The notes under the pieces: generated by a model
The model's input: the letters and a program-made list of their open reading frames with translations, nothing else
Told to the model about the DNA's origin: nothing
Databases searched by the model: none
NCBI GenBank assembly: GCA_020719045.1
Contig: DYQY01000005.1
Span: 62,001-126,000, forward strand
Direction: 5' to 3'
DNA: 64,000 bases
Source: Candidatus Termititenax sp.
GTDB taxonomy: Bacteria > Margulisbacteria > Riflemargulisbacteria > GWF2-35-9 > DYQY01
Made by a program: the position numbers and the translations under genes
Shown: positions 15,340 to 54,856 of the stretch, piece by piece
How positions within the stretch are numbered: the first letter of the stretch is position 1
How the letters are laid out: every line of letters begins with the position of its first letter

Positions 15340-15345
15340 TATAAT
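15340..15345 (+). promoter_or_regulatory. -10 box of leaderless thrC promoter
   Basis: TATAAT is followed by only six bases (ACTTCC) and then the thrC ATG, so transcription should start at or next to the start codon. Upstream lie three near-perfect copies of CTTTTAG (about 15315-15339), where a -35 box would sit; no canonical TTGACA is present. Confidence 0.6.
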
Positions 15346-15351
15346 ACTTCC

Positions 15352-16401
15352 ATGCATTATATGGGACTTATCAATAGATATCGTGAGTATTTGCCAGTTT
15401 CGGCTAACACAAAGATTATTACATTAAACGAGGGAGATACTCCTCTTATTCCTGCTGTTCATATTTCATCTTTGATAGGTAAAGGTATAAAAGTTTATTT
15501 CAAATATGAAGGTCTTAATCCAACAGGTTCATTTAAGGACCGTGGAATGACAATGGCTATTACCAAAGCAGCAGAAAAAGGAATGAAAGCAGTAATGTGT
15601 GCTTCTACTGGCAATACTTCCGCTTCTGCATCGGCATATGCTGCAAGGGCAGGAATGAAGTCAGTAGTAATAATACCAGAAGGTAAAATTGCTTTAGGGA
15701 AATTAGCTCAAGCAATGATGCATAATGCCCTTGTTATTGAGATTGAAGGTAACTTTGATGATGCGCTGAATACAGTAAAAGAAGTTACGAGCCAGTATCC
15801 TATTGAGCTAGTTAACTCTATTAATCCATATAGAATAGAAGGACAGAAGACCGCTGCTTTTGAGATAGTAGATGCTTTAGGTGATGCTCCAACGTATCAC
15901 AGCTTACCAGTTGGGAATGCAGGGAACATTACTGCGTATTGGAAGGGTTATACGGAATATCGAGATAATAAAAAGGCACGAAGTGTCCCAAAAATGATTG
16001 GATTTCAAGCAGAAGGTTCATGTCCAATTGTTGCTGGACGTGTATTTGAAAAGCCAGAAACTGTAGCAACAGCTATACGAATTGGAAACCCAGCTAGTTG
16101 GAAACAAGCAGAAGCTGCCAGAGATGAGTCGTTTGGGCTTATTGATAGCGTTACTGATGATGAGATATTGTCAGCATTTAAGCTTTTAGCTGCAACAGAG
16201 GGTGTTTTTTGTGAACCAGCTTCAGCAGCATCAGTTGCTGGAATACTTAAGAAGAAAGATATGTTTAAGAGTGGAGATGTTATTGTTTGTACTTTAACTG
16301 GACATGGTCTTAAGGATCCAGATAATGCAATCAAAATGTCAGATAGAACGTATAAAGTTTCAAATTCACTTAGTGAAATCGTAAAAATAATAGGGGTGTA
16401 A
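15352..16401 (+). CDS. thrC: Threonine synthase
   Basis: A PLP enzyme that converts O-phosphohomoserine to threonine. The 349-residue protein belongs to the short class of threonine synthases. The PLP-lysine motif GSFKDRGM is at about residues 61-68, with [19 protein letters not shown] following and a phosphate-binding GNAGN segment (about residue 189). No ribosome-binding site precedes the ATG; the -10 box is six bases away, which fits a leaderless message. The Lrp-type regulator begins one base after the stop codon and an aminotransferase follows, suggesting an amino-acid operon. Confidence 0.95.
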
Positions 16402-16402
16402 G

Positions 16403-16900
16403 ATGAGTATAAAAGAAAAACTGACTCAAATTTTAAAGGGAAACTCCAGGCTAGCTAATGCTGATATTGCTAAAATGATAGGTCTGTCAGAGAAGGAAGT
16501 TAGTAGCTTAATTAAGGAACTTGAGGACGATAAGATAATCCTTAAATATTCAGCTGTTATTAATGATGAGATGCTAGATAATGGTCAGTCTGTTACTGCG
16601 TTTATTGAAGTGAAAGTTACACCAGAACGAGACAAAGGTTTTGATAGTTTAGGCGAGAGATTGCAGAAGTTTCCTGAAGTTAAGTCAGTGTATTTAATGA
16701 GTGGAGCTTATGATATTTTAGTTGTAGTGGAAGGCAAATCCCTAAGAGAGATTGCTTCTTTTGTGTCTAATAAGCTTTCTCCAATTGGTAGAATTTTGTC
16801 TACAGCAACGCATTTCCAACTTAAAAAGTACAAAGAAAACGGTGTTATTATGGGAACTATTGATGAAGAAGGTTCTGGTCGTTTGAATGTTGCATTTTAG
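16403..16900 (+). CDS. Lrp/AsnC-family transcriptional regulator
   Basis: A 165-residue protein with an N-terminal helix-turn-helix (about residues 5-55, NADIAKMIGLSEKEVSSLIKELE) and a C-terminal AsnC_trans_reg/RAM domain (about residues 65-140, VTAFIEVKV, VYLMSGAYDILVVVEG). RAM domains bind amino acids and control oligomerisation. The gene lies between thrC and an aminotransferase, and regulator-aminotransferase pairs of this kind (for example YugG-YugH of Bacillus) are known, so it probably controls this operon. The effector cannot be read from the sequence. Confidence 0.9.
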   Translation: MSIKEKLTQILKGNSRLANADIAKMIGLSEKEVSSLIKELEDDKIILKYSAVINDEMLDNGQSVTAFIEVKVTPERDKGFDSLGERLQKFPEVKSVYLMSGAYDILVVVEGKSLREIASFVSNKLSPIGRILSTATHFQLKKYKENGVIMGTIDEEGSGRLNVAF

Positions 16901-16909
16901 GAGCTATAG

Positions 16910-18061
16910 ATGAAGGATATATCAACTAGACTTAAGCAAGTTAAGCCTTCTGGAATTAGAAAATTTTTTGACTTAGTTATGAATAGTAAAGATATTATCT
17001 CTTTAGGCGTAGGTGAGCCAGATTTTCCTACACCATGGCATATTACAGAACAAGGAATATTTCATTTAGAAAAAGGACATACATCATATACTTCCAATTT
17101 AGGGATGTTAGAGCTTAGAAAAGAAATAAGCGATTATTTGAAGAAAGATTTTTCTGCTGATTATGATCCAAAGGATGAAATAATGATAACCGTTGGAGTT
17201 TCTGCTGGACTTGATATGACCTTTAGAACCTTGCTTGAGCCTGGTGATGAAATAATTATTCCTGTGCCTAGTTATGTTTGTTATGAGCCACTTGCTTATT
17301 TGGCTGGTGGAGTACCAGTAATCGTAGATACCCGTGAAACAAACTTAGTGATAACAGCAGAGAGCATTGAAAAACACATTACTTCTAAAACAAAAGCATT
17401 ACTAATTTCTTACCCAAGTAACCCTACTGGAAGAATGATTTCTAAGGAACAACTTATAGAAATTATAGAAGTTTGTAAGAAATATGACATTTGGATTATT
17501 TCAGATGAAGTATATGGTGATTTAGTTTATGACTTAGAACCTATTTCAGCTGCTACTTATGTTAAGGATAGATTAATATTACTTAATGGTTTTTCAAAAT
17601 CCTATGCTATGACTGGTTGGAGGATAGGTTATGTCGCTTGTCCAAGAGAAGTGCTTAAGGAAATGGTAAAGATTCAACAGTATAATGTACTATGTGCTCC
17701 AATAATGTCACAGTATGCAGCCATAGAAGCTTTGCAGAACGGTAGAGCAGAGGTTGATAGAATGAAAGAATCTTACAAACTAAGAAGAAACTTTTTTTAT
17801 GAATCATTAGTTGAGATTGGCTTTGATGTTCAAAAGCCAGAGGGTGCTTTTTATATGTTTCCAAATATTAAGAAGTTTGGTCTAAGCGCAGAGGATTTTT
17901 CAATGAGACTCTTGCAAGAAGGCAGAGTGGCTGTTGTTCCTGGAAATGCTTTTGGTGACATGATAGATGACCATGTTCGTTGTTGCTACGCTTGTAGCAT
18001 GGATGAGCTAAAAGAAGCCATTTCCAGAATTGAACGGTTCATTAGTTCATTAGTTCATTAG
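16910..18061 (+). CDS. Class I/II PLP-dependent aminotransferase
   Basis: A 383-residue fold-type I aminotransferase. Visible motifs are LGVGEPDFPTP near the N-terminus, SYPSNPTG (about residue 169), SDEVYGDLVY, and the Schiff-base lysine in GFSKSYAMTGWRIGY (about residue 230). The context with an Lrp-type regulator resembles alanine or aromatic aminotransferases of the AlaT/YugH group; exact substrate is uncertain. The gene is nine bases after the regulator and in the same operon. The last codons and the stop lie inside a tandem repeat of the octamer GTTCATTA, so repeat-number changes would alter the C-terminus. Confidence 0.9.
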   Translation: MKDISTRLKQVKPSGIRKFFDLVMNSKDIISLGVGEPDFPTPWHITEQGIFHLEKGHTSYTSNLGMLELRKEISDYLKKDFSADYDPKDEIMITVGVSAGLDMTFRTLLEPGDEIIIPVPSYVCYEPLAYLAGGVPVIVDTRETNLVITAESIEKHITSKTKALLISYPSNPTGRMISKEQLIEIIEVCKKYDIWIISDEVYGDLVYDLEPISAATYVKDRLILLNGFSKSYAMTGWRIGYVACPREVLKEMVKIQQYNVLCAPIMSQYAAIEALQNGRAEVDRMKESYKLRRNFFYESLVEIGFDVQKPEGAFYMFPNIKKFGLSAEDFSMRLLQEGRVAVVPGNAFGDMIDDHVRCCYACSMDELKEAISRIERFISSLVH

Positions 18062-18076
18062 TTCATTAGTTCAATG
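18037..18076 (+). repeat. Tandem octamer repeat at aminotransferase 3' end
   Basis: GTTCATTA occurs four times perfectly (18037-18068), followed by a degenerate copy, GTTCAATG. The unit is eight bases, not a multiple of three, and the aminotransferase stop codon (18059-18061) falls within the third to fourth copies. Confidence 0.9.
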
Positions 18077-18225
18077 GTTTGCCGATGTTAATAGCTCTAC
18101 GATTGGCAATCAAATAAACCCTACGACATATTTTCTTTGTAAATAGCTTTGTTTTTCAATAAAATATTCAGCAAATAAATTAACTTAGTAGAATCTTTTA
18201 TCTTTAGTCTTTAATCTTTTGCCTT
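18062..18225. other. Intergenic region with degenerate repeats, no gene
   Basis: About 165 bases between the aminotransferase and apgM. It contains the end of the octamer repeat and, just before the apgM -10 box, a run of degenerate CTTTNATC/CTTTAGTC words (about 18194-18225). No coding potential or clear terminator was seen. Confidence 0.6.
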
Positions 18226-18231
18226 TATAAT
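18226..18231 (+). promoter_or_regulatory. -10 box of leaderless apgM promoter
   Basis: TATAAT followed by seven bases and the apgM ATG. The upstream pyrimidine-rich CTTT words resemble those before thrC and glyS. No ribosome-binding site lies between this box and the ATG. Confidence 0.6.
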
Positions 18232-18238
18232 AAGCCTT

Positions 18239-19387
18239 ATGAAATATATAGTTATTATTGGTGATGGGATGTCTGGATGGGCTTCTGATAGCTCTGAAGG
18301 CAAAACAGCTTTAGAGTTGGCAAATATACCTAACTTAGATTTATTAGCTCAAAAGGGTGAATTAGGTTTAGTTAGAAATACACCAGCTAATCTTCCTCCT
18401 GGTAGCGATGTTTGTAATTTGTCAGTGTTTGGGTATGACCCAGGGAAATATTACACTGGTAGAGCGCCTATTGAGGCAGTTGCACAAGGTATCGAGCTTT
18501 CAGAAAACGATACAGTATTTCGTGCTAATTTAGTTATTATTGAAGATGGGAAGATGAAGGATTTTACGGCTGGGCATATTTCAAATGCTGATGGAGAGTT
18601 GGCTATTTCTGCTTTAAATAAACTTGTAGAAAATATCGATAATATACAGTTTTATCCTGGAGTAAGCTATAGAAACTTGATGGTAGTTAATGATGAAAGC
18701 TTTAGTGTTGAAACAACACCCCCTCATGACATTACAGGGAAAGATATTTCTGCGTATTTTCCTAAAGGCAGTGGTTCATTGTTAATTAAAGATATTATGA
18801 AAAATAGCGAACAGGTTATGCCATTAAACAGTAAGGCAAGTATGGTTTGGTTATGGGGGCAAGGCACCAAGTTGTCTATCCCGAATTTTGAGTCAATATA
18901 CAGATTAAAAGGAGCGGTCATTACAGCTGTAGATTTGATAAAGGGACTTGGATATGCTGCTGGTATGGACTATATTAAAGTTCCTAGCATTACTGGGTTT
19001 GTTGATACTAATTATGAAGGTAAGGCAAGGTATGCAATAGCAGCTTTAGAACAATACGATATAGTTTTTATTCACGTGGAAGCACCTGATGAGGCAGGCC
19101 ACACTGGAGATTTAGCTTTAAAAGTTAAAGCAATTGAAGATTTTGATAAAAGGGTAATTGGAACAATTTTGTCTGAGATTAAGTATGAAGAGTATAAGCT
19201 GATGGTACTCCCTGACCACTCAACTCCAATAGAAATTAAGACGCATTCAAGAGACGATGTTCCATATGTAATTTATGACAATCTGAATAAAAAGAATAAC
19301 GCCAAGGCAGTGTATTCTGAGAAATATGCTAAAGATAATTCTGCTGAAGTAATTATTGGTCACGAGCTAATGAGTAGGTTTATTTAG
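18239..19387 (+). CDS. apgM: 2,3-bisphosphoglycerate-independent phosphoglycerate mutase, archaeal type
   Basis: Interconverts 3- and 2-phosphoglycerate. The 382-residue protein matches the archaeal-type family (COG3635) and not GpmI: it starts KYIVIIGDGMSGWASD with the metal-binding Asp, has NLPPGSDVCNLSVFGYDP with the catalytic Ser, and FIHVEAPDEAGHTGD plus LPDHSTPIEIKTHS metal sites near the C-terminus. It heads a long operon; its TAG stop overlaps the GTG of the next gene by one base. Archaeal-type enzymes are found in scattered bacterial phyla, so this is unusual but not unique. Confidence 0.93.
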   Translation: MKYIVIIGDGMSGWASDSSEGKTALELANIPNLDLLAQKGELGLVRNTPANLPPGSDVCNLSVFGYDPGKYYTGRAPIEAVAQGIELSENDTVFRANLVIIEDGKMKDFTAGHISNADGELAISALNKLVENIDNIQFYPGVSYRNLMVVNDESFSVETTPPHDITGKDISAYFPKGSGSLLIKDIMKNSEQVMPLNSKASMVWLWGQGTKLSIPNFESIYRLKGAVITAVDLIKGLGYAAGMDYIKVPSITGFVDTNYEGKARYAIAALEQYDIVFIHVEAPDEAGHTGDLALKVKAIEDFDKRVIGTILSEIKYEEYKLMVLPDHSTPIEIKTHSRDDVPYVIYDNLNKKNNAKAVYSEKYAKDNSAEVIIGHELMSRFI

Positions 19388-20394: not shown

Positions 20395-20403
20395 CGAAGA
20401 GAA

Positions 20404-22184: not shown

Positions 22185-22862
22185 GTGATTAGACTAAGGA
22201 ACGTAACTAAGACTTATCAAGATTTTGTAGTTTTAAATCATATAAATCTTCATATAGCTAAAGACGAATTTGTTTTTTTAGTTGGTCCAACTGGTTCAGG
22301 TAAGACAACTATTTTGAATTTATTGACTCGTGAAGAAGTTCCTGATGCGGGCAAGATATATGTTGGGATGACAAGCATTAATGAGCTTAATGAAAGACAA
22401 GTCGCTAATTTAAGAAAGAATATTGGCTTTATTTTCCAAGATTTTAAGATACTAAATAGAACAATCTACGAGAATTTGGCATATGTTTTAAAAATACAGG
22501 GTGAAAAAAAACAGATAATCAAAGAGAAAATTGATAGAGTTGCTGAGTTAGTTGGGTTTGAAAGTAAGTTATATTGTTATCCTCATCAGCTTTCTGGTGG
22601 AGAACAACAAAAGGTTTGTATCGCCAGAGCAATTATTAACAAGCCTCACGTTTTATTAGCTGATGAGCCAACTGGCAACTTAGATCCAGATGCGTCGCTT
22701 GAGATAATTCAGATTATTTCTAAAATTAATTTAGATAACACCACTGTTATTGTCGCAACTCATGATAAAGCAATCGTTGATTTAATGCGGAAACGTGTTA
22801 TTGGCTTACATGGTGGGAATATAGTTCGTGACCAGCAAATGGGGAGCTATCATGAATTTTAG
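22185..22862 (+). CDS. ftsE: Cell-division ABC transporter ATP-binding protein FtsE
   Basis: ATPase partner of FtsX; the complex activates cell-wall hydrolases at division. Walker A GPTGSGKTT is at about residues 35-43, the ABC signature LSGGEQQKVCIARA near residue 140, and Walker B LLADEPTGNLD near residue 162, in a 225-residue protein of normal length. It starts with GTG directly at the end of the transketolase gene and overlaps ftsX by 11 bases. An EnvC-like M23 protein, the usual type of FtsEX target, is encoded at 46104-47231. Confidence 0.95.
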   Translation: MIRLRNVTKTYQDFVVLNHINLHIAKDEFVFLVGPTGSGKTTILNLLTREEVPDAGKIYVGMTSINELNERQVANLRKNIGFIFQDFKILNRTIYENLAYVLKIQGEKKQIIKEKIDRVAELVGFESKLYCYPHQLSGGEQQKVCIARAIINKPHVLLADEPTGNLDPDASLEIIQIISKINLDNTTVIVATHDKAIVDLMRKRVIGLHGGNIVRDQQMGSYHEF

Positions 22863-27133: not shown

Positions 27134-27254
27134 GTTGGCTCCTTATTTAATCATTCTCGTTTATACGGAAATCTTGTAGTGATTTTCTCACAGAGAAAGA
27201 AAATTCAAAAGTAAAAAGTTCAGCTTTCAGCTTTGAGCTTTGGGATTTTAGCTT

Positions 27255-27260
27255 TATAAT
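27255..27260 (+). promoter_or_regulatory. -10 box of leaderless glyS promoter
   Basis: TATAAT stands seven bases before the glyS ATG with no ribosome-binding site between. Upstream (27221-27254) are degenerate AGCTTTCAG/CTTTGAG words; TTGAGC at 27233-27238 could serve as -35 with a 16-base spacer. Confidence 0.6.
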
Positions 27261-27267: not shown

Positions 27268-29292
27268 ATGAATTATTTATTAGAAGTTGGTACAGAAGAA
27301 GTCCCTGCAAGGTTTTTACAAAGTTTGATGGCTGATTTGGTTGAAAATGTAACCAAGAGGCTTGATGGTATTACTTTTTCTGAGATTGAAACCTTTGTTA
27401 CTTACAGAAGATTAGCATTTATTATAAAAGGGCTATCTAAAGAGCAAGCGTCAAAAGATGAAGAGATTAAGGGACCTCCTGAGAAAGTTGCAGTAAACTC
27501 CGATAGTAGTTATACCAAAGCTGGAGAAGGTTTCATGAAGAAGTTTGGTGTAACTGAAGGAGTTGTCCGTGACGGTTACTTATATGTAAGAGTTTTCGAA
27601 AAAGGCAAGCTCACTAAAGATGTATTAGCAAATATTGTACAGGACTCGCTCTCAGCTTTATATTTACCAGTTGCGATGAAGTGGGGTAATGAGAAGCAGA
27701 AGTTTTATCGTCCTGTTCATTGGATAGTTTCTTTACTTGATGATAAAGTTTTGCCATTAGAGTTTGCAGGGATTAAAGCAGGAAATATTTCCAGAGGTCA
27801 TCGTTCTTTAGTGATAGGACAAGATATAGATGGAGTGGAACTTCCAATCGATTCAGATGCAAATTATGAAAATATTTTACAAAAAAATGGAGTTATTGCT
27901 AGTTTTAACAAGAGAAGAGACATAATAGTAGATAAGTTAGGTAAAGCAACAAGTAATGTTGTGTTGGATAAGCCTTTGCTTGATGAGGTTTGTGGGTTAG
28001 TTGAAGAACCTGTTATTTTACAAGGAGAATTTGAAGACGAATTCTTGCAAATACCGGACAGAATTTTGATAACTTCTATGCAGAAGCATCAGAAGTATTT
28101 TCCAGTTATTGAAGGTGGAAAATTAACACACAAATTTTTAATTATTGCTGATAATGTGAATGATAAGAATAGTAAAAATATCATAGCAGGGAATCAGAAA
28201 GTATTAAGAGCAAGACTATGTGATGCAAAGTTTTTTTATGAAGAAGATACAAAGTATGATTTTGCACATTTTAATGAAAAGTTAAAAACCATTATGTTTC
28301 AACAGAAGTTAGGAAGTATTTTTGATAAGGTTAAGAGAAATATTTTTGTGGCTGAGTTTATTTGTGACAAGATGGGGCTTGATGTTGCTACTAGAAAGAC
28401 AGTAACAACAGTCACTGAATATGCTAAAGCAGATTTATCTACAGGAATGGTGAATGAGTTTGCTGAACTGCAAGGGTATGTTGGACAGCAGTATGCTTTA
28501 AAGTGGGGCATTGATAAGCAGATAGCCGATGGAATATATGAGCATTACTTACCTGCATTTGCTGGTGATGTGTTGCCTAGTTCTTTAGTTTCATCAGTAG
28601 CATCAATATCAGACAAAGTTGAAACAATAGTTGGTCAATTTGTTATTGGGAAAATTCCTTCTGGTTCTCAGGACCCTTTTGGACTTAGACGTCAAGCAAA
28701 CGGAATTGTAAGAATATTTTTTGAACAAGATTATTTCACTTTTTCATTGAAAGATTTAATTTGTTTTACGACTAGTTTATATAAGGATTTTGAAGTAACA
28801 AAAGATACAGAAGGTAAGATATATGATTTCTTTGAGCAAAGAATAGAACAGTATTTAAAGGATAAGGAAGTATCTATTGATGTCATTGGGGCAATCAAGA
28901 CCTTTGATATTATTTTACTTAAGAAAAGAGAAGTATTTATTTCTGGTTTATGTAAATTAGATAAAAAGAAATATATTTTGGAGGCTATTGTTAGAGTATT
29001 GAATATTACAAAAGATACAAAGCTAGAAGGATTAAAAATAGTAGACCCGTTCTTATTTGAAGATGCTTCAGAGCGAGCATTATATGACACCTTTAAGAAG
29101 TTAACTAAAACAGATAGGACTTGGGACGCAAGTCTATATAAAGAATGGGAAGTTTTAGCCAAAGCCGTTAGTGAATTTTTTGAAGCTGTAATGGTTATGG
29201 TTGATGATGAGAAAATTAAAAACAATAGACTAAGTCTTTTATGTAATTTGAGAGATTACTTTGAGCAATTTGGAGATATGAAGCTCTTATAG
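27268..29292 (+). CDS. glyS: Glycine-tRNA ligase beta subunit
   Basis: Beta subunit of the bacterial alpha2beta2 glycyl-tRNA synthetase; provides tRNA recognition. The 674 residues are close to the usual 690. Family motifs are LEVGTEEVPARF at the N-terminus, KGPPEKVA-type region, the HRSL and FLIIADN segments, and GSQDPFGLRRQANGI (about residue 468), followed by a DALR-like C-terminal domain. The alpha subunit gene glyQ is about 12 kb away on the other strand, whereas the two are usually adjacent. The 3' end overlaps the converging deaminase gene by six bases. Confidence 0.95.
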   Translation: MNYLLEVGTEEVPARFLQSLMADLVENVTKRLDGITFSEIETFVTYRRLAFIIKGLSKEQASKDEEIKGPPEKVAVNSDSSYTKAGEGFMKKFGVTEGVVRDGYLYVRVFEKGKLTKDVLANIVQDSLSALYLPVAMKWGNEKQKFYRPVHWIVSLLDDKVLPLEFAGIKAGNISRGHRSLVIGQDIDGVELPIDSDANYENILQKNGVIASFNKRRDIIVDKLGKATSNVVLDKPLLDEVCGLVEEPVILQGEFEDEFLQIPDRILITSMQKHQKYFPVIEGGKLTHKFLIIADNVNDKNSKNIIAGNQKVLRARLCDAKFFYEEDTKYDFAHFNEKLKTIMFQQKLGSIFDKVKRNIFVAEFICDKMGLDVATRKTVTTVTEYAKADLSTGMVNEFAELQGYVGQQYALKWGIDKQIADGIYEHYLPAFAGDVLPSSLVSSVASISDKVETIVGQFVIGKIPSGSQDPFGLRRQANGIVRIFFEQDYFTFSLKDLICFTTSLYKDFEVTKDTEGKIYDFFEQRIEQYLKDKEVSIDVIGAIKTFDIILLKKREVFISGLCKLDKKKYILEAIVRVLNITKDTKLEGLKIVDPFLFEDASERALYDTFKKLTKTDRTWDASLYKEWEVLAKAVSEFFEAVMVMVDDEKIKNNRLSLLCNLRDYFEQFGDMKLL

Positions 29293-37831: not shown

Positions 37832-38979
37832 CTGGCTAGTTCCTTCACTATTTCACTGTCGTCAAAGTGGGATTTGATATTTCCAATAATTTGGTAGTCC
37901 TCGTGGCCTTTACCAGCCAGCATTATGAAGTCATTTGCTTTGGCAAGCAGAAGCGCTTTTTTAATAGCTTCTTTTCTGTCTATTTCAATTATTAATTTGT
38001 TTTTATTTTCTATGCCAACAGTAATCTGGTCTATGATAGACTGCGGATTCTCTGTTCTTGGATTGTCGGAAGTAACAATTATTATGTCAGCCCATTTATC
38101 TGCAATTTTGCCCATAAGTGGTCTTTTTTTGTTGTCTCTATCTCCACCAGCACCGAACACAGCAATAAGTTTATTTTTTGTAATTTTTCTTGCCTCTTTA
38201 AGAACATTGTCCAGCCCATCAGGAGTGTGCGCGTAATCAACTACTGCGGTGTATGGTTTATTTATAGCAACTTTTTCGAACCTTCCTTTTGGTGGCAAGG
38301 CGTTAGCTAGTCCATCTTTTATGGTTTGAATAGGAATACTCAGTGCCTTACAGATAGCAAAAGTAGCTTTCAGATTATTTTCATTAAAAGCACCTATAAG
38401 TTTATGAGAGAAATCAATTTTTATTTTCTTGTAGTCAGTAGGATAGATTGTCGTACCAACTGGGTTTGTTAAGAATTTGAATTTTGCACTAACGTAGTTC
38501 TTAAAAGTTTTGTGATAGTCTAAGTGGTCTTGAGTAATGTTCGTAAGAAGTTTAACTGTGAATGGTAATCCTGCAATTCTATTTTCTTCAACACCAATAG
38601 AGGATACTTCCATTATTAGGTGAGTTTCATTATTCTCTATCATTTCTTTAATGATAGACACTAGGTCGAAAATCTCTGGTGTAGTCAGTGATGAGTTGAT
38701 TGTTCCTATAACTCTTGGTTTTGCGCCAGCCTGTTTTAGCACTTCGTTTACTAAATAGGTTACAGTTGTTTTGCCATTGGTGCCTGTTACGCCGATTATT
38801 TTTATTTTATTCATCGGAAGGTTCCATAGCGTGCTAAGATATCTGTAAACAAATTTTTTATCAATCTTGATGATTTTATTTGTTTTTTCTATGAGTTCCT
38901 TGGTTATGTGATTCTGACCCTTATTAATGGCTAAAAAAATGTCATTCGTGTTTATTTTTCTGGTGTCATACTGTATCAT
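37819..38979 (-). CDS. murE: UDP-MurNAc-dipeptide ligase MurE, meso-DAP type, compact form
   Basis: Adds the third amino acid of the stem peptide. The motif SDNPRTENP (about residue 295) is the DNPR signature linked to meso-diaminopimelate, not lysine. The P-loop GVTGTNGKTTVTYL is at about residue 63 against about 110 in Escherichia coli, and total length is 386 against about 495, so the N-terminal domain is shortened. TNITQDHLDYH and VVDYAHTPDGL are conserved. It is the first gene of the mur operon and has a promoter immediately upstream. Confidence 0.94.
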   Translation of the reverse strand: MIQYDTRKINTNDIFLAINKGQNHITKELIEKTNKIIKIDKKFVYRYLSTLWNLPMNKIKIIGVTGTNGKTTVTYLVNEVLKQAGAKPRVIGTINSSLTTPEIFDLVSIIKEMIENNETHLIMEVSSIGVEENRIAGLPFTVKLLTNITQDHLDYHKTFKNYVSAKFKFLTNPVGTTIYPTDYKKIKIDFSHKLIGAFNENNLKATFAICKALSIPIQTIKDGLANALPPKGRFEKVAINKPYTAVVDYAHTPDGLDNVLKEARKITKNKLIAVFGAGGDRDNKKRPLMGKIADKWADIIIVTSDNPRTENPQSIIDQITVGIENKNKLIIEIDRKEAIKKALLLAKANDFIMLAGKGHEDYQIIGNIKSHFDDSEIVKELASCIP

Positions 38980-38988: not shown

Positions 38989-39018
38989 ATTATAAGGCTA
39001 GAATAGAAGCAATTGCAA
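38989..39018 (-). promoter_or_regulatory. Promoter of murE operon, near-leaderless
   Basis: On the minus strand TTGCAA (39013-39018), an 18-base spacer and TATAAT (38989-38994) precede the murE ATG by nine bases. No ribosome-binding site fits in the gap. TTGCAA is self-complementary and lies in the region shared with the divergent sigma-factor gene. Confidence 0.65.
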
Positions 39019-40958: not shown

Positions 40959-40987
40959 TTGACGTTTATTTGCTATGTGATTATACT
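40959..40987 (+). promoter_or_regulatory. Leaderless promoter of pilin-like gene
   Basis: TTGACG (40959-40964), a 17-base spacer and TATACT (40982-40987) are followed by six bases and ATG at 40994. This is one of the two best-formed leaderless promoters in the window and also sets the start of the gene. Confidence 0.75.
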
Positions 40988-40993: not shown

Positions 40994-41431
40994 ATGATGG
41001 TTGCTCCTAGTAATAGAAAAGCCTTTATGTTACTTGAGACATTATTAGCTTTATCTATTCTATTAATATTGTTGCCAATGGTAAGTAATATTTTTTATGG
41101 GAGCGTTAAAAGATATCAATCGAATTCAGATGAGAATAAAGAGATAGCTCAGGTAGTGTTTGCAGAAATGTATCTAAACAAGATAGGCAAAGTTTCTGAC
41201 TCAATTAATGTGGTTGGTGAGGTTTTGCAAATTGATAGTGGAGGCGTTATCCATGAAGTGGGAGTTAAAAATAATAAGCTGTATACTATGCAATCAGCAA
41301 CTAGATACTTAACAATAGAACCAATGCAAATAAGTAGCTATCGGTTTATTAAGTTAAATGATAATTACTATCAGATTGAGTTGCGTACAAAAACTAATAG
41401 AGAATATTTAATTCAAATGATTAGATACTAA
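40994..41431 (+). CDS. Type IV pilin/pseudopilin-like protein
   Basis: The ATG at 40994 is chosen because a -35/-10 pair lies exactly upstream; longer frames start inside the promoter. The 145-residue protein has a short basic leader (MMVAPSNRKA) and the hydrophobic FMLLETLLALSILLILLPMV, matching the prepilin pattern with Glu at +5, though the residue before the cleavage point would be Ala in place of the usual Gly. The rest is a small soluble beta-rich domain. No other pilus gene is near. It could be a minor pseudopilin of a secretion or competence system. Confidence 0.65.
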   Translation: MMVAPSNRKAFMLLETLLALSILLILLPMVSNIFYGSVKRYQSNSDENKEIAQVVFAEMYLNKIGKVSDSINVVGEVLQIDSGGVIHEVGVKNNKLYTMQSATRYLTIEPMQISSYRFIKLNDNYYQIELRTKTNREYLIQMIRY

Positions 41432-42423: not shown

Positions 42424-42452
42424 ATTATACAGTTTATTTGTTGATTTGTTTA
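42424..42452 (-). promoter_or_regulatory. Leaderless promoter of glyQ
   Basis: On the minus strand TAAACA (42447-42452), a 17-base spacer and TATAAT (42424-42429) lie six bases before the glyQ ATG. Confidence 0.65.
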
Positions 42453-42559
42453 TCTGTTTATTTGTTAGTATATTAGTATATATAGGAAAAGGAAAAAGTA
42501 TTAAAGATAAAGTTGTTTTTCCTTTTCACCTCTCACCATTCACTTTTCACTATTTGTAA
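42453..42559. other. Intergenic region between glyQ and rpsF, no gene
   Basis: AT-rich sequence with short degenerate tandem words (TTTGTTTA/CTGTTTA on the glyQ side, TTTTCACC/TTTTCAC at about 42523-42552). No coding potential was seen. Confidence 0.5.
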
Positions 42560-42682: not shown

Positions 42683-42973
42683 ATGAAATATGAGGTTTTA
42701 GCATTACTTAAACCCGAAAATACTGAAGAACAAGTAGATTCGTTAATAGAAAAAATAAAGAAGAATATTGAAGCAGTTGATGGAACTTTTATCGACGCTG
42801 AAAAATGGGGTAAGAGAGAAACTCCATATGCTTTTAAAAAGCATAAAGGTCTTAAAGAAGCATATTATGTTTTAATTAACTTTGAAAAACTAAAAGGTGA
42901 ACTTACTAGACTGAACTACAGTATAAGTATCGACGAGAACGTAGTTCGTCATATGATTACAAAAAAGGACTAA
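42683..42973 (+). CDS. rpsF: 30S ribosomal protein S6
   Basis: A 96-residue S6 that binds 16S rRNA with S18. Family features: YEVLALLKPENTEEQV at the N-terminus, WGKRETPYAFKKHKGLKEAYYVLINF in the centre (the RRxLAYPI equivalent) and NVVRHMITKK at the end. GGAGG precedes the ATG. First gene of rpsF-ssb-ssb-rpsR-rplI, the usual order with one extra ssb. Confidence 0.96.
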   Translation: MKYEVLALLKPENTEEQVDSLIEKIKKNIEAVDGTFIDAEKWGKRETPYAFKKHKGLKEAYYVLINFEKLKGELTRLNYSISIDENVVRHMITKKD

Positions 42974-44510: not shown

Positions 44511-44511
44511 A

Positions 44512-47241: not shown

Positions 47242-47270
47242 TTGTCAAAAGATTAAAATCTTTATAAGAT
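47242..47270 (+). promoter_or_regulatory. Leaderless promoter of ctpA
   Basis: TTGTCA (47242-47247), a 17-base spacer and TAAGAT (47265-47270) lie six bases before the ctpA ATG, in the 45-base gap after the M23 gene. Confidence 0.55.
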
Positions 47271-47276: not shown

Positions 47277-48446
47277 ATGCTTAAATATAGATGGTTAATT
47301 CTGCTATCCTTTTTGTTGACTTTTGGGTTCAGTGCTAATACTAATAATCTCTCAACCACCAGCTGGAAATTACAAATATTAAAGGTTTTTGATATTATTG
47401 AGCATCAATATGTCGAAGATAGTATAGAGGATGAACAACTTGTTCATGGTGCTATTGAAGGCATGCTTAATTCATTAAATGACCCATATACTAGATTTTT
47501 AAAACCAACAGGCTTTTCAGAATTAAAGACTAATCTTCAAGGTAATTTTTATGGTATTGGTATTCATATCGGGCTTAAAGATGGTAAGTTGGTGGTTATA
47601 TCTCCAATGGAAGACACCCCAGCATATAAGGCAGGGCTTAAGTCATTTGATATAATCTCATCAATTAATAGTAAATCAACAACAGGTATATCGTTGGAAG
47701 AAGCAGTTTCCAAGATAAGAGGAGAAAAAGGTACCTCAGTTGTATTGGGGATACATAGAGAGACTAATTCTAGTAATTTTAATGTTCAAATTACTAGAGA
47801 CATTATACAAATTAAGAGTATAAAAGAAAGTGTAATGCTTAAGAATAATGTTGGATATATCAGGTTAATGACTTTTGAGAGCAAGGATACATATACTCAA
47901 CTTAAGGATGCTATCCTCAAGCTTAAGAAGGATGGAATGGAAAAGCTTATTTTAGATGTTAGGTATAATGGTGGTGGGTTATTGCACAATGCTTTGGATA
48001 TAGCAGGTTTATTCATTGGTAGTAAGGTAGTAGTTAAAACAGTTGATAGAAAGGGTGACTCGTTGGAATTGCATTCTACAAAGCCAAATTCTCAAATATT
48101 TTCTGGACCTTTAATTATTCTTGTAAATGGTGCATCAGCTTCTGCATCAGAGATTCTAGCAGGTGCGATTAGGGATAATAATAGAGGAATTGTAATGGGT
48201 ACTCAAACGTTTGGTAAGGCATCTGTACAGGAAGTTATTCCATTGCAAGATGAATCTGCTATACTTCTTACAACAGCCAAATACTTAACACCAAAAGGTT
48301 CTGACATTAACAAAATTGGAATTACTCCTGATGTAGTTGTAAACATTCCATCTGAAGATATTAAACTGATTCAAGAGGGAAAGTATGAATATTCTTTAGA
48401 GAAGGACTTTCAAGTTCAGCAGGCATTAAATTATTTTAAAAAATAA
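47277..48446 (+). CDS. ctpA: Carboxyl-terminal processing protease (S41 family)
   Basis: A 389-residue periplasmic serine protease: signal peptide (WLILLSFLLTFGFSA), N-terminal helical region with GAIEGMLNSLNDPYTRFL, a PDZ domain (about residues 95-165) and the S41 catalytic core with the Ser in NGASASASEILAGA (about residue 285) and the Lys in GTQTFGKASVQ. Such proteases trim or degrade envelope proteins and wall hydrolases. It overlaps the next gene by one base. Confidence 0.95.
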   Translation: MLKYRWLILLSFLLTFGFSANTNNLSTTSWKLQILKVFDIIEHQYVEDSIEDEQLVHGAIEGMLNSLNDPYTRFLKPTGFSELKTNLQGNFYGIGIHIGLKDGKLVVISPMEDTPAYKAGLKSFDIISSINSKSTTGISLEEAVSKIRGEKGTSVVLGIHRETNSSNFNVQITRDIIQIKSIKESVMLKNNVGYIRLMTFESKDTYTQLKDAILKLKKDGMEKLILDVRYNGGGLLHNALDIAGLFIGSKVVVKTVDRKGDSLELHSTKPNSQIFSGPLIILVNGASASASEILAGAIRDNNRGIVMGTQTFGKASVQEVIPLQDESAILLTTAKYLTPKGSDINKIGITPDVVVNIPSEDIKLIQEGKYEYSLEKDFQVQQALNYFKK

Positions 48447-49375: not shown

Positions 49376-49386
49376 GAAGTTTTTAG

Positions 49387-50388: not shown

Positions 50389-50394
50389 AAAAGT

Positions 50395-50400
50395 ATTATA
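50395..50400 (-). promoter_or_regulatory. -10 box of leaderless mltG promoter
   Basis: On the minus strand TATAAT is followed by six bases (ACTTTT) and the mltG ATG. No ribosome-binding site; the -35 region is weak. Confidence 0.55.
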
Positions 50401-50461
50401 AATTCCATTTGTTTAATATACTAATCGGAATTATTTAGTTTTTATTTCAGATACTTATGCG

Positions 50462-50470
50462 TGGTATACT
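50462..50470 (+). promoter_or_regulatory. Extended -10 box for the methyltransferase gene
   Basis: TGG plus TATACT, about 35 bases before the ATG at 50506, followed by a GAAGGAGA ribosome-binding site. This is a conventional leadered promoter. Confidence 0.5.
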
Positions 50471-50505
50471 TGCTTTATTAGATAAGCAGATGAAGGAGAT
50501 ATTTT

Positions 50506-51066
50506 ATGCATATTTTTAATCCAAAAGATTTTCAAAAACTACTTAGTCCTGAAAGACATAGCATTATTAATCCAGTAACTACCTTGACTCAGATAGGACT
50601 TAAAGAGGGAGATACTTTTTTGGACTTTGGTTGTGGTCCAGGGTTTTTTACGGTTCCTGCATCAAACATTGTTAAGAGTTCAGGCAAAATATTTGCTTTG
50701 GATATTTTCGATGAAATGTTGCAAGAGTTAGCAAAGAGCGAACTGAAAGCACCTACTGAATTTGTTAAGTTATTTGATTCGACGATTCCTTTAGTTGATG
50801 AAGTTGCAAATATTGTTTTTATGGCTTTTGTTCTTCATGAGGTAATTGATAAAGAAAAGGTATTGTCAGAATTATACAGGGTTACAATGCCAAAAGGTAA
50901 AATTGCAGTGATTGAGTGGAATGAAATACATGCTGGTAAAGGGCCAGATTTGGGTGAGAGAGTATCGTCCAAAGAAGCAATTAAAGTATTAGAAAATGCA
51001 GGATTTAAGGACATTATTTATAAAGAAATTAACCCTTATCATTATCTTGTTGTTGGCAGTAAATAG
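50506..51066 (+). CDS. Class I SAM-dependent methyltransferase
   Basis: A 186-residue Methyltransf_11/UbiE-like protein: motif I FLDFGCGPGFFTVPAS (about residue 39), an acidic strand-2 end FALDIFDEML, and FMAFVLHEVIDKEKVLSELYRV. Substrate not identifiable. The 3' end contains the promoter of the following antiporter gene. Confidence 0.88.
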   Translation: MHIFNPKDFQKLLSPERHSIINPVTTLTQIGLKEGDTFLDFGCGPGFFTVPASNIVKSSGKIFALDIFDEMLQELAKSELKAPTEFVKLFDSTIPLVDEVANIVFMAFVLHEVIDKEKVLSELYRVTMPKGKIAVIEWNEIHAGKGPDLGERVSSKEAIKVLENAGFKDIIYKEINPYHYLVVGSK

Positions 51067-51075
51067 AAGTATAAT
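51047..51075 (+). promoter_or_regulatory. Leaderless promoter of antiporter gene
   Basis: TTGTTG (51047-51052), a 17-base spacer and TATAAT (51070-51075) lie seven bases before the ATG at 51083. The -35 box is inside the end of the methyltransferase gene. Confidence 0.65.
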
Positions 51076-51082
51076 AGCTCAG

Positions 51083-52042
51083 ATGATTAATTTATTGCTT
51101 TTTATTATTGGGTTAGTGTTCCTTGTTAAAGGTGCTGATTTTTTAGTTGATGGCTCGGCATCTATTGCTAAGAAACTTAATATTTCAAGTATAGTTATTG
51201 GTTTAACTATTGTTGCTTTTGGAACTTCTACACCAGAACTTATTGTTAATATTTTTGCAAGTGCACAGGGTAATAGCGAAATAGCCATTGGTAATGTTCT
51301 TGGTAGTAATATAGCAAACATACTCTTAATACTTGGAATCTCTGCAATTATTTTTCCAATAACGGCTAAAAAGAATACTGTTTTAAAAGAAGTTCCTTTT
51401 AGTTTACTAGCAATTCTTATTTTAGGTGTTATGGCTAATGATATGCTTATTGATGGCGGAACGTTTTCTGGTATAACGAGAATAGATGGAATTGTTCTTT
51501 TGGGTTTTTTTGTTATCTTTCTTGTCTATACTTTCGGAATTACAAAGTCTGATGATGACATTGTTGAAAAAGATCCAATTAAGCTTTTTAGTTTTCCAGT
51601 TTCTATTTTTTTAATAATTGGTGGATTAATAGGGTTGATGATTGGCGGGAAGTTGATAGTTGATGCAGCAGTAAGATTGGCTGAATTCTTTAACATTAGT
51701 CAATCATTAATTGGACTAACAGTCGTAGCGATTGGAACATCTTTGCCTGAGTTAGCTACTTCAGCTATTGCCGCGTATAAGAAACAATCCGATATAGCTA
51801 TTGGAAATGCTGTTGGATCAAATATTTTTAATGTTTTTTTAGTGTTAGGTATAAGTGCAACTATTCGTCCATTACCCTTTAGTACTAGCTCTAATGGTGA
51901 TATCGCAATGACCATTTTGGCAAGTGTAGTTTTATTTGGAGTTATGGTTGTTGGTAAACGAAGAGTTATTGAGCGTTATCAAGGTGTATTGATGGTTTTA
52001 ACTTATATTGCATATGTTGCAGTGTTGGTAGTCACCAAGTAA
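51083..52042 (+). CDS. Calcium/sodium antiporter (CaCA family, YrbG-like)
   Basis: The ATG at 51083 is set by the promoter seven bases upstream; a longer frame into the methyltransferase gene would add a spurious N-terminus. The 319-residue protein has about ten membrane helices and the two inverted alpha-repeats of the family: TIVAFGTSTPELIVN with GNVLGSNIANILL, and TVVAIGTSLPELATS with GNAVGSNIFNVFL. It exchanges Ca2+ or another cation across the cytoplasmic membrane. Confidence 0.95.
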   Translation: MINLLLFIIGLVFLVKGADFLVDGSASIAKKLNISSIVIGLTIVAFGTSTPELIVNIFASAQGNSEIAIGNVLGSNIANILLILGISAIIFPITAKKNTVLKEVPFSLLAILILGVMANDMLIDGGTFSGITRIDGIVLLGFFVIFLVYTFGITKSDDDIVEKDPIKLFSFPVSIFLIIGGLIGLMIGGKLIVDAAVRLAEFFNISQSLIGLTVVAIGTSLPELATSAIAAYKKQSDIAIGNAVGSNIFNVFLVLGISATIRPLPFSTSSNGDIAMTILASVVLFGVMVVGKRRVIERYQGVLMVLTYIAYVAVLVVTK

Positions 52043-52268
52043 CGCTTTTAATAAGGGCTCATTGCCGCCCTTATTAATCCTGCTAGCACTGAGGCTTCAG
52101 TTCTTAGATTAAGTAAATCTTATTCCACTAATGGACAAATTCGCCTGTCCTGGCTCAGTTGTCCTGAAAAATCGTCCTGATTTTTCTACGCTTTATTCGC
52201 TAACTTAATCTACAGCACTTCTCGCACAGTGACTAATGAATAGTGGGAAACCGTTTATTTTGCCATAA
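52043..52268. other. Non-coding stretch with several inverted repeats
   Basis: About 225 bases of unusually GC-balanced, structured sequence. After the terminator-like hairpin there is ACTGA/TCAGT around GGCT (about 52088-52101), and TAGATTAAGT (about 52107-52116) is complementary to ACTTAATCTA about 85 bases on. No convincing reading frame or ribosome-binding site was seen. It may be a structured RNA, a decayed mobile element or a repeat. Confidence 0.4.
52048..52077 (+). terminator. Hairpin after antiporter gene
   Basis: TTAATAAGGGC (52048-52058) and GCCCTTATTAA (52067-52077) form a perfect 11-bp stem with an eight-base loop, six bases after the stop codon. No T-run follows on the + strand. 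Confidence 0.55.
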
Positions 52269-52297
52269 TTGTTTTATGTATAAGCTTAACCTATAAT
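52269..52297 (+). promoter_or_regulatory. Leaderless promoter of first accessory gene
   Basis: TTGTTT (52269-52274), a 17-base spacer and TATAAT (52292-52297) are followed by six bases and the ATG at 52304. A GTG adjoins the -10 box and is unlikely to be the start. Confidence 0.6.
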
Positions 52298-52303
52298 GTG
52301 ATT

Positions 52304-52924
52304 ATGGAACGATTAATGATGATTATACAAAAAATAGAAAAACATCCGATTTATATTCTTATAGGAATACTGGTAACAATTTATACTTTTGTTCAACCTT
52401 TTAGAGAGTTAATAAAATATTTAGTAATTGGAAGTATAAATGTAATAATATTTGTTTTAAAACAAGCAATAGTTCCTATTCCAATAAATGGATTATTTAT
52501 AATAATTTATAGTTTTTTTATGATGGGGGTCATATATTTGTTTTTTTTAAGAAAGTCTAAACAACGAGACAAATTAGAGGACTCACATATAGTAGAAAAC
52601 TTAGTTGAATTACCTAAAGAAAATTTAGTTGATAAAACGGAAAAACCAAAAAGATTTAGTATGGTAATTGAAGATATATTGTGGGAATTTGTTTATGATG
52701 GTGGAAATGTTTATCCGTTTTGTAATAAATGTCAAACACCACTTAAATTTAATGAATACCATAATTTAAATTCAGGTTATTACGATACAAGTTTATTTTG
52801 TGATACATGCAAAGGCATACAGCACACTTATAAAAACTCATTTAAAAGTGGTGTGGTTGAGTCTATTAGAAATCAAATTGCTGGAGAACTTCGTAGAAGA
52901 GCTAAAGATAATAAAAGTGAATAA
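52304..52924 (+). CDS. Unrecognised membrane protein with C-terminal zinc-ribbon-like motif
   Basis: No family was recognised. The 206-residue protein has two or three membrane helices (about residues 15-33, 43-60 and 68-85), a charged linker, and a cytosolic part with two CxxC pairs, FCNKCQTPL (about residue 142) and FCDTCKG (about residue 168), as in a zinc ribbon. It is followed 40 bases later by another unrecognised gene; both sit in an accessory pocket between the antiporter and ruvX. The region reads more AT-rich than the neighbours. Start set by the leaderless promoter. Confidence 0.7.
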   Translation: MERLMMIIQKIEKHPIYILIGILVTIYTFVQPFRELIKYLVIGSINVIIFVLKQAIVPIPINGLFIIIYSFFMMGVIYLFFLRKSKQRDKLEDSHIVENLVELPKENLVDKTEKPKRFSMVIEDILWEFVYDGGNVYPFCNKCQTPLKFNEYHNLNSGYYDTSLFCDTCKGIQHTYKNSFKSGVVESIRNQIAGELRRRAKDNKSE

Positions 52925-52964
52925 TAAAGTTTGATTATAGAAAGCTATAAATTGAGAAGGAAAA

Positions 52965-53582
52965 TTGGCTCCATTTAAATATTTAAAAAAATGTTATGCT
53001 AATTCTTTATGTGAATCTGGCATGATTCGTCTTGGTACATTATATGAGTATCGGGATACTGAGAGGTATGGGAATAATATAGGTGATAAATATGAAGGAA
53101 CAGGCGGGAAACAGTGGAATCTAAACGGTGAAACATATGGTGGAAATCAATTACCAGAAAAAGTTAAACAAATAGGGAGAATTAGAGTATATTCTTCTTT
53201 AAAAGGTGATGGTTCTATAGTATTTAGTGAGACTTGTCCTAATTTTTATATTTATTCAGTTTGTGCAACATTTTTTGATTCTGTCTCAGACTTTATGGAT
53301 CCGGAATACGATTCTTGTGTTGAAATTTTAAATCAAGAGCTGTTTGCTGCAATAGTTACAAAAGAGTTAGACTTGCCTTTTTTGCATTGGTCTCCGTGTA
53401 AATATCAAAATCGTATTAAGAATATTTTTGACGATGGAATAATTGATTATTCAGTTATTAAGGAAACAAAATATGTACAACAGAATGAGGTTAGAGGGAT
53501 TTGGGGTCCAATAGCTAGTCAAGAAAAAGCAAGGATACTTTCAGTTCCAGAAATTGCTCAATTTTGTAAAAGAAAATATTAG
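52965..53582 (+). CDS. Unrecognised 205-residue soluble protein
   Basis: TTG at 52965 with GAAGGA five bases upstream. The protein begins FKYLKKCYANSLCESGMIRLGTLYEYRD, shown in parts here as CESGMIRLGTLYEYRD, a layout seen in uncharacterised accessory proteins of many genomes, then YEGTGGKQWN, NFYIYSVCATFF and a Trp/Pro-rich segment LPFLHWSPCKYQN. No catalytic motif was identified, and no signal peptide or membrane helix. It may form a two-gene unit with the upstream membrane protein. A defence-type function is possible from the context only. Confidence 0.65.
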   Translation: MAPFKYLKKCYANSLCESGMIRLGTLYEYRDTERYGNNIGDKYEGTGGKQWNLNGETYGGNQLPEKVKQIGRIRVYSSLKGDGSIVFSETCPNFYIYSVCATFFDSVSDFMDPEYDSCVEILNQELFAAIVTKELDLPFLHWSPCKYQNRIKNIFDDGIIDYSVIKETKYVQQNEVRGIWGPIASQEKARILSVPEIAQFCKRKY

Positions 53583-53818
53583 TTATTTAATTGCTGGCTG
53601 AGCAACTGTTTGAACGAATTAAAATTGTAGAAATTTTGAAATCATTTAACGACAATTTATCAGAATAGTATAGTTTAGCAATTCTCCCGAAGGTTGAATT
53701 GTTTGTACTGGAAATAGTAATAGCTCACAGGGTGATGAAAAATTTTCCAAATTTAAATGAGTGAGTTTTGCGAAGTCTTGATTTTTGAGTTACTTTTTAT
53801 CAAGAAAAAGTAACAAAG
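53583..53818. other. Non-coding stretch, no gene seen
   Basis: AT-rich with frequent stops in all frames on inspection. It ends in the hairpin at 53789-53814, next to the first copy of the ruvX-end repeat. Confidence 0.6.
53789..53814. repeat. Perfect 10-bp inverted repeat
   Basis: GTTACTTTTT (53789-53798) and AAAAAGTAAC (53805-53814) around ATCAAG. The upstream word CTTGAT can pair with the loop as an alternative fold. From memory it resembles interspersed palindromes next to accessory genes in other bacteria; this is unverified. Confidence 0.7.
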
Positions 53819-53860
53819 ATTATTTTTTGTCTAAGAAGCTCTGTAATATCTGTGTAGCTT
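53819..53860. repeat. Duplicated 3' end of ruvX, distal copy
   Basis: Identical at 41 of 42 bases to 54442-54483. Read on the minus strand it encodes the RuvX tail ATQILQSFLDKK plus stop; the single difference changes GCA to GCT, a synonymous Ala codon. Confidence 0.9.
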
Positions 53861-53907
53861 TAAACCACCTAGAATTATTGACGCTTTATTATTTATTATT
53901 TTATTTA

Positions 53908-53936
53908 TTGACCTAATGTTCGTTTTATACTAAAAT
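53908..53936 (+). promoter_or_regulatory. Leaderless promoter of ORF6N gene
   Basis: TTGACC (53908-53913), a 17-base spacer and TAAAAT (53931-53936) are followed by six bases and the ATG at 53943. With the pilin-like gene this is the clearest leaderless promoter in the window. Confidence 0.75.
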
Positions 53937-53942
53937 ATATTT

Positions 53943-54440
53943 ATGGATATTATAGTTCCTAAGGAAGTAATTGAGTCAAGAATATACTTGATAAGAGGGA
54001 GTAAGGTCATGCTTGATAGAGGCCTTGCTGAGCTTTACCAAGTCGAGACAAGGACGTTAAATCAGTCTGTTAAAAGAAATATTAGTAGGTTTCCTGAAGA
54101 TTTTATGTTTCAGTTAACAGATAAAGAGTTTTCTAACTTGAAATCACAATTTGTGATTTCAAGTTGGGGAGGAGCTAGAACATTACCTTTTGTTTTTACA
54201 GAGCATGGAGTAGCAATGCTTTCTAGTGTACTGAGAAGCGAAAGGGCAGTTCAGATAAATATCCAGATTATGCGTGCTTTTACAAAATTAAGAGAAATGA
54301 TGAAAAGTCATAAGGAATTGTTGGATAAAGTTAATGAGTTAGAAAAAAGGTATGATTATAATTTTCAAATAGTTTTTGAAGCAATTGACCAGTTGCTGGC
54401 TGTGCCAGATAAAAATGTAATGAAAATAGGGTTTATTTAA
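53943..54440 (+). CDS. ORF6N domain (KilA-N-related) DNA-binding protein
   Basis: The 165-residue protein has an ORF6N domain at about residues 8-92 (IYLIRGSKVMLDRGLAELYQVETRTLNQSVKRN in parts, FPEDFMFQLTD, PFVFTEHGVAMLSSVL) and a C-terminal coiled coil (about residues 110-140, MKSHKELLDKVNELEKRY). ORF6N proteins come from phages and are spread by transfer; their precise role in chromosomes is unknown. The gene carries a perfect palindrome in its coding region and is flanked by direct repeats of the ruvX end. Confidence 0.9.
   Translation: MDIIVPKEVIESRIYLIRGSKVMLDRGLAELYQVETRTLNQSVKRNISRFPEDFMFQLTDKEFSNLKSQFVISSWGGARTLPFVFTEHGVAMLSSVLRSERAVQINIQIMRAFTKLREMMKSHKELLDKVNELEKRYDYNFQIVFEAIDQLLAVPDKNVMKIGFI
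54135..54165. repeat. Perfect 31-nt palindrome inside the ORF6N gene
   Basis: Two 15-base arms, the left being AACTTGAAATCACAA, are exact reverse complements around a central T. It encodes NLKSQFVISSW, in the variable loop before the conserved PFVFTEHG segment. Confidence 0.9.
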
Positions 54441-54441
54441 T

Positions 54442-54483
54442 ATTATTTTTTGTCTAAGAAGCTCTGTAATATCTGTGTTGCTT
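54442..54483. repeat. ruvX 3' end, proximal copy of direct repeat
   Basis: Contains the ruvX stop codon and the last 12 sense codons. It begins one base after the ORF6N stop codon. Partner of 53819-53860. Confidence 0.9.
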
Positions 54484-54844
54484 CTAAAGCGTCTTTGATT
54501 TCTCTTTGTTTTTTTTGATTTATACCTTGAGCTATTAGTTGTTTACCAACGAAGGATGAAGTTAGCCTTTCGTCTTGGAAGATGATTGGAACAGTTACAT
54601 GCTTTTCCAGTTCTGCTTTAAACTCTTTAACAAGTCCAGTCATAGCAGTTTCGTTGCCTTTTAATGCTCTAGGTAAACCAAGCACTATTGATTCTATGGT
54701 TTCTTCTTCAAGTATTTCTTTGATTTTAGTAAATGCTTTGTTCGGTTCTATTTTCCCATAAGGAAAAGCGATTGATTTAAACGGATCAGATAAAGCAATC
54801 CCAATATATTTTGTCCCAAAATCTAATCCCAACACTTTTTTCAT
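54443..54844 (-). CDS. ruvX: Putative pre-16S rRNA nuclease / Holliday-junction resolvase-like YqgF
   Basis: The 133-residue protein has the RNase-H-like YqgF fold: LGLDFGTKYIGIALSD (first Asp), IVLGLPRALKG, IIFQDERLTS (DERLTS motif) and IKDALEATQIL with the last Asp. The family processes the 5' end of 16S rRNA in E. coli. It follows alaS but has its own -10 box at 54851-54856. Confidence 0.95.
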   Translation of the reverse strand: MKKVLGLDFGTKYIGIALSDPFKSIAFPYGKIEPNKAFTKIKEILEEETIESIVLGLPRALKGNETAMTGLVKEFKAELEKHVTVPIIFQDERLTSSFVGKQLIAQGINQKKQREIKDALEATQILQSFLDKK

Positions 54845-54850
54845 GCTGTC

Positions 54851-54856
54851 ATTTTA
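54851..54856 (-). promoter_or_regulatory. -10 box of leaderless ruvX promoter
   Basis: On the minus strand TAAAAT is followed by six bases (GACAGC) and the ruvX ATG. No ribosome-binding site is present; the -35 region is not clear. Confidence 0.5.

Follow-up and report, generated by a model that had tools for sequence, protein, structure and literature searches.

Putative leaderless promoters, some preceded by in-register tandem arrays, in a genome of Candidatus Margulisiibacteriota

Sigma70-type promoters giving leaderless transcripts are, very probably and on the sequence evidence, the best explanation for the −10-like hexamers that stand directly ahead of many operon-leading genes in the genome of the uncultured bacterium studied here (G000; 1.75 Mb in 31 contigs, 34% GC). 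With a −10 box so near the coding sequence, RNA polymerase would start at, or 0–3 bases from, the A of the ATG, and the resulting leaderless mRNA would presumably be translated without Shine–Dalgarno (SD) contact; operon-internal genes and many other operon heads would use ordinary SD sites. We infer this transcription start and this mode of translation from four observations: a positional peak of the hexamer, the confinement of this peak to operon heads, the conservation of the layout and the spacing of the −35 boxes. In a subset of promoters of the genus, an in-register array of 7- or 8-mers appears to take the place of a recognizable −35 hexamer. Leaderless transcription is a known bacterial mode that appears to be newly shown for this phylum, and no report of leaderless expression in Margulisbacteria was found in the literature searched. 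G000 belongs to Candidatus Margulisiibacteriota; the nearest GlyQ from a named organism is the Candidatus Termititenax aidoneus protein (74%), and the GlyQ of another member of the phylum (G013) is 100% identical to the T. aidoneus protein.

Twelve putative promoters in the window

The window is the whole stretch of 64,000 nucleotides analysed here. A first-pass annotation had named twelve genes in it with a TATAAT-like hexamer shortly before the start codon and no ribosome-binding site. All twelve hexamers (12/12) were located 6–9 bases ahead of the start codon and their coordinates fixed, and a convincing SD sequence was found at 0/12 of these genes. On the forward strand, TATAAT precedes thrC (PALP domain; 15340–15345, 6 bases before the ATG at 15352), apgM (18226–18231, 7 bases before the ATG at 18239), glyS (27255–27260, 7 bases before the ATG at 27268), an antiporter gene (Na_Ca_ex; 51070–51075, 7 bases before the ATG at 51083) and the gene at 52304 (52292–52297, 6 bases before the ATG). 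The gene at 40994, whose product has a pilin-like N-terminus and no Pfam match, has TATACT (40982–40987), and the ORF6N gene at 53943 has TAAAAT (53931–53936), both 6 bases before the ATG. For ctpA (Peptidase_S41), the hexamer at 47265–47270 is indeed 6 bases before the ATG at 47277, but its sequence, TAAGAT, is a weak −10 (4/6) rather than a close match to TATAAT. On the reverse strand, TATAAT lies 6 bases before the ATG of glyQ (42424–42429; ATG 42417) and of mltG (YceG family; 50395–50400; ATG 50388), and TAAAAT lies 6 bases before that of ruvX (54851–54856; ATG 54844). In murE (Mur ligase), also on the reverse strand, TATAAT at 38989–38994 is 9 bases before the ATG at 38979, which would give a leader of ~3 nt if used.

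Four −35 boxes proposed in the same annotation each lie exactly 17 bp from the −10, namely TTGACG of the 40994 gene (40959–40964), TTGTCA of ctpA (47242–47247), the −35-like TTGTTG of the antiporter gene (51047–51052) and TTGACC of the ORF6N gene (53908–53913), all on the forward strand. The antiporter gene begins only ~16 bp after the preceding gene and is an exception to the operon-head restriction. Consistent with the earlier description, SD sequences are present at the genes at 42683 (rpsF-like), 27133 (DUF1015), 57736, 50506 and 23764. A very long open reading frame of 2309 codons occupies positions 103–7032 of the window.

The earlier promoter description was right about the hexamers and overlooked that four of these genes have tandem arrays of 7- or 8-mers directly against the −10. 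The 7-mer array of thrC, (GCTTTTA)3.7, at 15315–15340 and the degenerate 7-mer array of apgM, (CTTTNNN)n, at 18192–18227 are both flush with the −10, and the 7-mer array of glyS, (AGCTTTN)n, at 27219–27255 is in register with it (all on the forward strand). The 8-mer array of glyQ, (AACAAATA)n, at 42430–42466 on the reverse strand is likewise in register with its −10. A perfect 8-mer array, (GTTCATTA)4.6, is also found at 18037–18073, overlapping the 3′ end of a gene that ends at 18061 and adjoining no start.

A positional peak at operon heads

Start codons were chosen by a purpose-written gene caller that relies on codon usage alone and ignores upstream signals. Gene-based counts cover 631 kb of G000 and ~790 kb of its sister species (G001), and exact patterns were scanned genome-wide. 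A strict hexamer was defined as TA...T with at least 5 of 6 positions matching. The genome scan proposed by the first-pass annotation gave the predicted result: strict hexamers do peak 6–7 bases before operon-leading starts. In the 631 kb of G000, 32 of the 230 operon-leading genes have one at spacing 6 or 7 (19 genes at 6 and 13 at 7, compared with ~3.5 per position elsewhere); dinucleotide shuffles give 6.1 ± 2.5 for the two spacings together (maximum 12 in 100) and the other spacings give 7.2. Operon-internal genes of the same 631 kb show no peak (4/189 versus 3.4 expected). Operon heads of G001 display a spacing peak like that of G000, and no peak was found in identically treated sequences from Desulfobacterota, Paenibacillus and Peptococcaceae. 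When all in-frame start candidates were counted, the excess was 28 in 251 operon-leading genes, similar to the result with the caller's starts. In the genus of G000, the peak is limited to ATG, with none on GTG or TTG.

The exact pattern TATAAT-N6/7-ATG occurs 165 times in the whole of G000, compared with 94 occurrences for N13/14 (p = 6e-6) and 109 for the reversed-pattern control; in G001, the counts are 209 and 116 at the control spacing. Summed over the 55 genomes used for the phylum comparison (G000, G001 and 53 relatives), there are 5515 occurrences versus 3477 for the control, and 33/55 genomes are significant at p < 0.01. The excess is absent from G007, G020, G034, G043, G045 and G049. 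The −10-to-ATG spacing trait is widespread but patchy in the phylum. Two higher-GC relatives, G011 and G014 (L136–L155), have a double −10 peak at spacings 6 and 8, which suggests that some of their transcripts may carry a leader of 1–2 nt. In one divergent gene pair (L124, ~6000–6090), both leaderless-type −10 boxes are interlocked on opposite strands of a short shared intergenic region, and a similar case is seen in G001 (L172).

Conservation and −35 boxes

The orthologous promoters compared between G000 and G001 have kept the −10 and the interval that separates it from the ATG. In thrC, the array is retained as well, and the G001 glyS also has a 7-mer array; the flanking bases of apgM, glyS and glyQ have largely diverged. 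The layout of glyQ can be followed much further, since a hexamer matching at least 5/6 positions lies 6–9 bases before the start in 20 of 29 phylum genomes (1.9 expected from shuffles, maximum 8 in 2000), and in some families of the phylum the start that follows the hexamer is often GTG. In many relatives glyS and glyQ are neighbours; in the window they lie ~15 kb apart on opposite strands, each with its own leaderless-type promoter. The two arrangements of glyS, alone or behind glyQ, are a natural comparison of operon head and operon interior. Where glyS stands alone, it has the leaderless layout (G000, G001, G002, G003 and G004). Among the sampled starts of glyS genes located directly behind glyQ, none is preceded at 5–9 bases by a −10 with 5/6 or more matching positions.

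Among 55 array-free promoters of the leaderless type, 21 have a −35-like hexamer (at least 4/6) at 16–18 bp, with 17 as the best spacing, compared with 8.1 expected from shuffles (maximum 15 in 200). Single genes that have no conserved orthologue are individually uncertain as leaderless candidates, TATAAT-like strings being common at 34% GC.

Tandem arrays upstream of the −10 box

Arrays in the genus are of two types, 7-mer (CTTTNNN)n and 8-mer (AACNNNNN)n, that run flush into the −10 box. When periods of 5–10 were scanned in intergenic DNA, the arrays in the sampled part of G000 had periods of 7 (11 arrays) and 8 (3) only, and those of G001 had periods of 7 (10), 8 (5) and 9 (1). The repeat units of G001 (CTTTTAG) vary little, those of G000 more. 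Two array patterns were searched genome-wide: CTTTNNNCTTTNNNCTTTATAAT has 8 sites in G000 and 6 in G001, and AACNNNNNAACNNNNNAACNNTATAAT has 7 and 6, respectively; each has 0 sites in the 53 other phylum genomes and 0 in the reversed control. No flush array (0) turned up in 80 records from other organisms, 1.28 Mb of sequence in total, and such upstream arrays, seen in this genus only, look new. A loose 8-mer pattern without the −10 was discarded as evidence, as it has ~10 matches in shuffled sequence. The two array patterns hold no start codon, and the resulting set is independent of start prediction. In 25 of its 27 sites, an ATG that opens a long frame follows exactly 6–7 bases past the TATAAT, and this set is the strongest single argument that starts in the genus may be leaderless. 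The genes at these sites include those for imidazoleglycerol-phosphate dehydratase, a LeuA/homocitrate-synthase-type enzyme, GTP cyclohydrolase I, QueC, an aspartyl-type tRNA synthetase, a 6-pyruvoyl-tetrahydropterin-synthase-type protein, TrkA, homoserine dehydrogenase and BacA/UppP.

An array is present in one or both members of 14 orthologue pairs; 12 of the pairs keep an array, and in two of these 12 its type is switched: apgM has a 7-mer array in G000 and an 8-mer array in G001, and hom has the reverse. The hom arrays (L301 in G000, L286 in G001) lie ~30–60 bases before the ATG. Upstream of G001 hom, the old 8-mer sequence AACAAATAAACATTA persists; exactly 35 bases, or five heptamers, separate it from the TAAT. 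We read the five heptamers as a probable insertion of whole units, and arrays appear to spread in general by slippage or unit insertion of this kind. A few arrays precede SD-led genes (C28:126860 in G000; L278 and L298 in G001), and the array thus seems to go with the promoter and not with leaderless translation. Judging by its position, register and retention, the array would be a DNA-level promoter element, serving the polymerase or an upstream factor; action at the level of DNA is suggested because the array lies outside the leaderless mRNA and because it is also found ahead of some SD-led genes. Tentatively, and with somewhat less than even confidence, we propose a genus-specific promoter class in which the −35 is replaced by a tandem array of 7-mers or of 8-mers that keeps a constant register with the −10, the two types being functionally interchangeable and spread by whole-unit insertion, and which would serve many housekeeping genes, mostly leaderless.

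A reading that we hold to be just as possible is that the arrays are slippage-born or selfish repeats tolerated between genes and have no role in the promoter. Units do vary among species and genes, some intergenic arrays have no adjoining −10, and heptamer repeats are over-represented in the intergenic DNA of several bacteria (PMC4692102). Repeats of that sort do not readily account, however, for intergenic periods of almost solely 7 and 8, for arrays that stop at the −10 in a constant register and are directed towards a downstream gene, or for the retention of an array in 12/14 orthologue pairs, two of them with its type altered.

Two proposed modes of translation initiation

The first-pass annotation had suggested two initiation modes, with leaderless mRNA as the norm for many operon-leading genes. 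Leaderless operon heads with SD sites elsewhere are supported by the head-only peak, the conservation between species, the 17-bp spacing of −35 boxes and the persistence of the glyQ layout across the phylum, but the amount was overstated. Genome-wide, the leaderless share may be put at 11% of operon heads at least and perhaps at 20% or so, and SD starts are commoner. The 11% is a lower bound because the codon-only caller misses some starts; in the window, it misplaces or misses those of ctpA, murE and mltG, and its recovery of the window cases is estimated at roughly 60%. The window is richer in leaderless-type starts than the genome estimate.

SD matches are found at 46% of operon heads (18% in shuffled sequence) and at 59% of internal genes (30% in shuffled sequence). 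Heads with a close −10 have a 4-base SD match in 4 of 43 cases, compared with 102 of 187 other heads, a difference that is partly geometric, as the −10 occupies the same bases. The anti-SD sequence was read in relatives, the 16S rRNA being missing from the G000 assembly; CACCTCC is intact in 19 of the 20, including G001, and one match is apparently out of register. Loss of the SD system was rejected as a reading because the anti-SD is intact in these relatives and SD matches are enriched. The predicted initiation mode of folE has changed between the sister species: the gene is of the leaderless type with a 7-mer array in G000 (L287), and SD-led (AAGGAG) and array-free in G001 (L156).

About half of the operon heads have no SD match and G000 has a gene for a four-domain S1 protein, as might be expected if the true transcription starts lay further upstream, the leaders were translated by non-SD initiation (e.g. 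A/U-rich, S1-dependent) and the hexamers served otherwise. An A/U-rich translation enhancer would have no need, however, of promoter-like spacing to both −35 and ATG, and the peak is missing at operon-internal genes, where a translation signal is still required; we consider this account improbable. Weaker still, and to be given little credence, is the view of the arrays as RNA elements of translation control, as proposed for the TAACTGA repeats of Beggiatoaceae. Both are tandem heptamers just ahead of start codons (PMC4679880), but here the −10 lies between array and ATG, and the array would be untranscribed from that promoter. Finally, that AT-rich intergenic DNA yields TATAAT-like hexamers near starts by chance, from which good ones were selected, is scarcely believable: 34% GC and the 94 control sites in G000 show that such strings do arise, but chance does not explain a peak at two neighbouring spacings that is absent inside operons, a −10 and spacing conserved between species, a −35 at 17 bp, or a start-free array pattern that reaches an ATG at 6–7 bases in 25/27 sites.

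Comparison with known systems

Leaderless promoters, as the preferred reading, would add a phylum neighbouring Cyanobacteria to those with leaderless expression, with the glyQ layout kept at phylum depth. In a survey, ~40% of genes in Deinococcus-Thermus and ~20% in Actinobacteria were leaderless, and operon-distal genes needed SD sites (PMC3160421). Leaderless genes are predicted to be used by ~21.6% of bacterial species, a figure that PMC9581028 quotes from GeneMarkS-2. In Deinococcus radiodurans, the ORF-adjacent motif was shown experimentally to be the promoter −10, and a −35 raises expression (PMC12340547). Like the leaderless genes of Deinococcota and Actinobacteria (PMC3160421; PMC12340547; PMC3898074), those described here have a sigma70-like −10 (TANNNT there) directly before the start, and in both settings a large minority of genes would be leaderless while operon-distal genes are SD-led. 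Unlike them, the present cases come from another phylum of low GC, have the full TATAAT consensus and, in some, arrays upstream of it, show a peak on ATG and not on GTG/TTG in this genus, and are predicted from sequence. Gene finders that rely on SD signals alone may misplace starts here.

If their promoter role holds, the arrays would represent a novel kind of upstream element, and one that poses a puzzle, with 7-bp and 8-bp repeats working in the same place. In promoters of epsilon-proteobacteria, a periodic AT signal with a period of ~10–11 bp replaces the −35 box; the units here are of 7 or 8 bp. Direct repeats of the heptamer TAACTGA occur in Beggiatoaceae, cyanobacteria and some Bacteroidetes, and a role in translation has been proposed for them (MacGregor 2015, PMC4679880). 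As in that system, the arrays described here are intergenic tandem 7-mers aimed at a downstream start, and the genes are mostly without SD. The units differ, however, being CTTTNNN or AACNNNNN here and not TAACTGA. Moreover, TAACTGA arrays are dominated by one heptamer and usually stop 1 nt short of the start codon, overlapping the ribosome-binding region, whereas those of this genus comprise both 7-mers and 8-mers, have variable units exchanged between orthologues, and end at the −10 box, 6–7 nt plus the hexamer before the ATG. A translation role such as that proposed for TAACTGA would not fit, because the array here is upstream of the −10. Heptameric G-rich repeats of Xanthomonas and Nostoc (PMC4692102) are likewise intergenic tandem repeats near ORFs, but they are quadruplex-forming, lie upstream of ORFs for the most part on the opposite strand and have no fixed register with a promoter.
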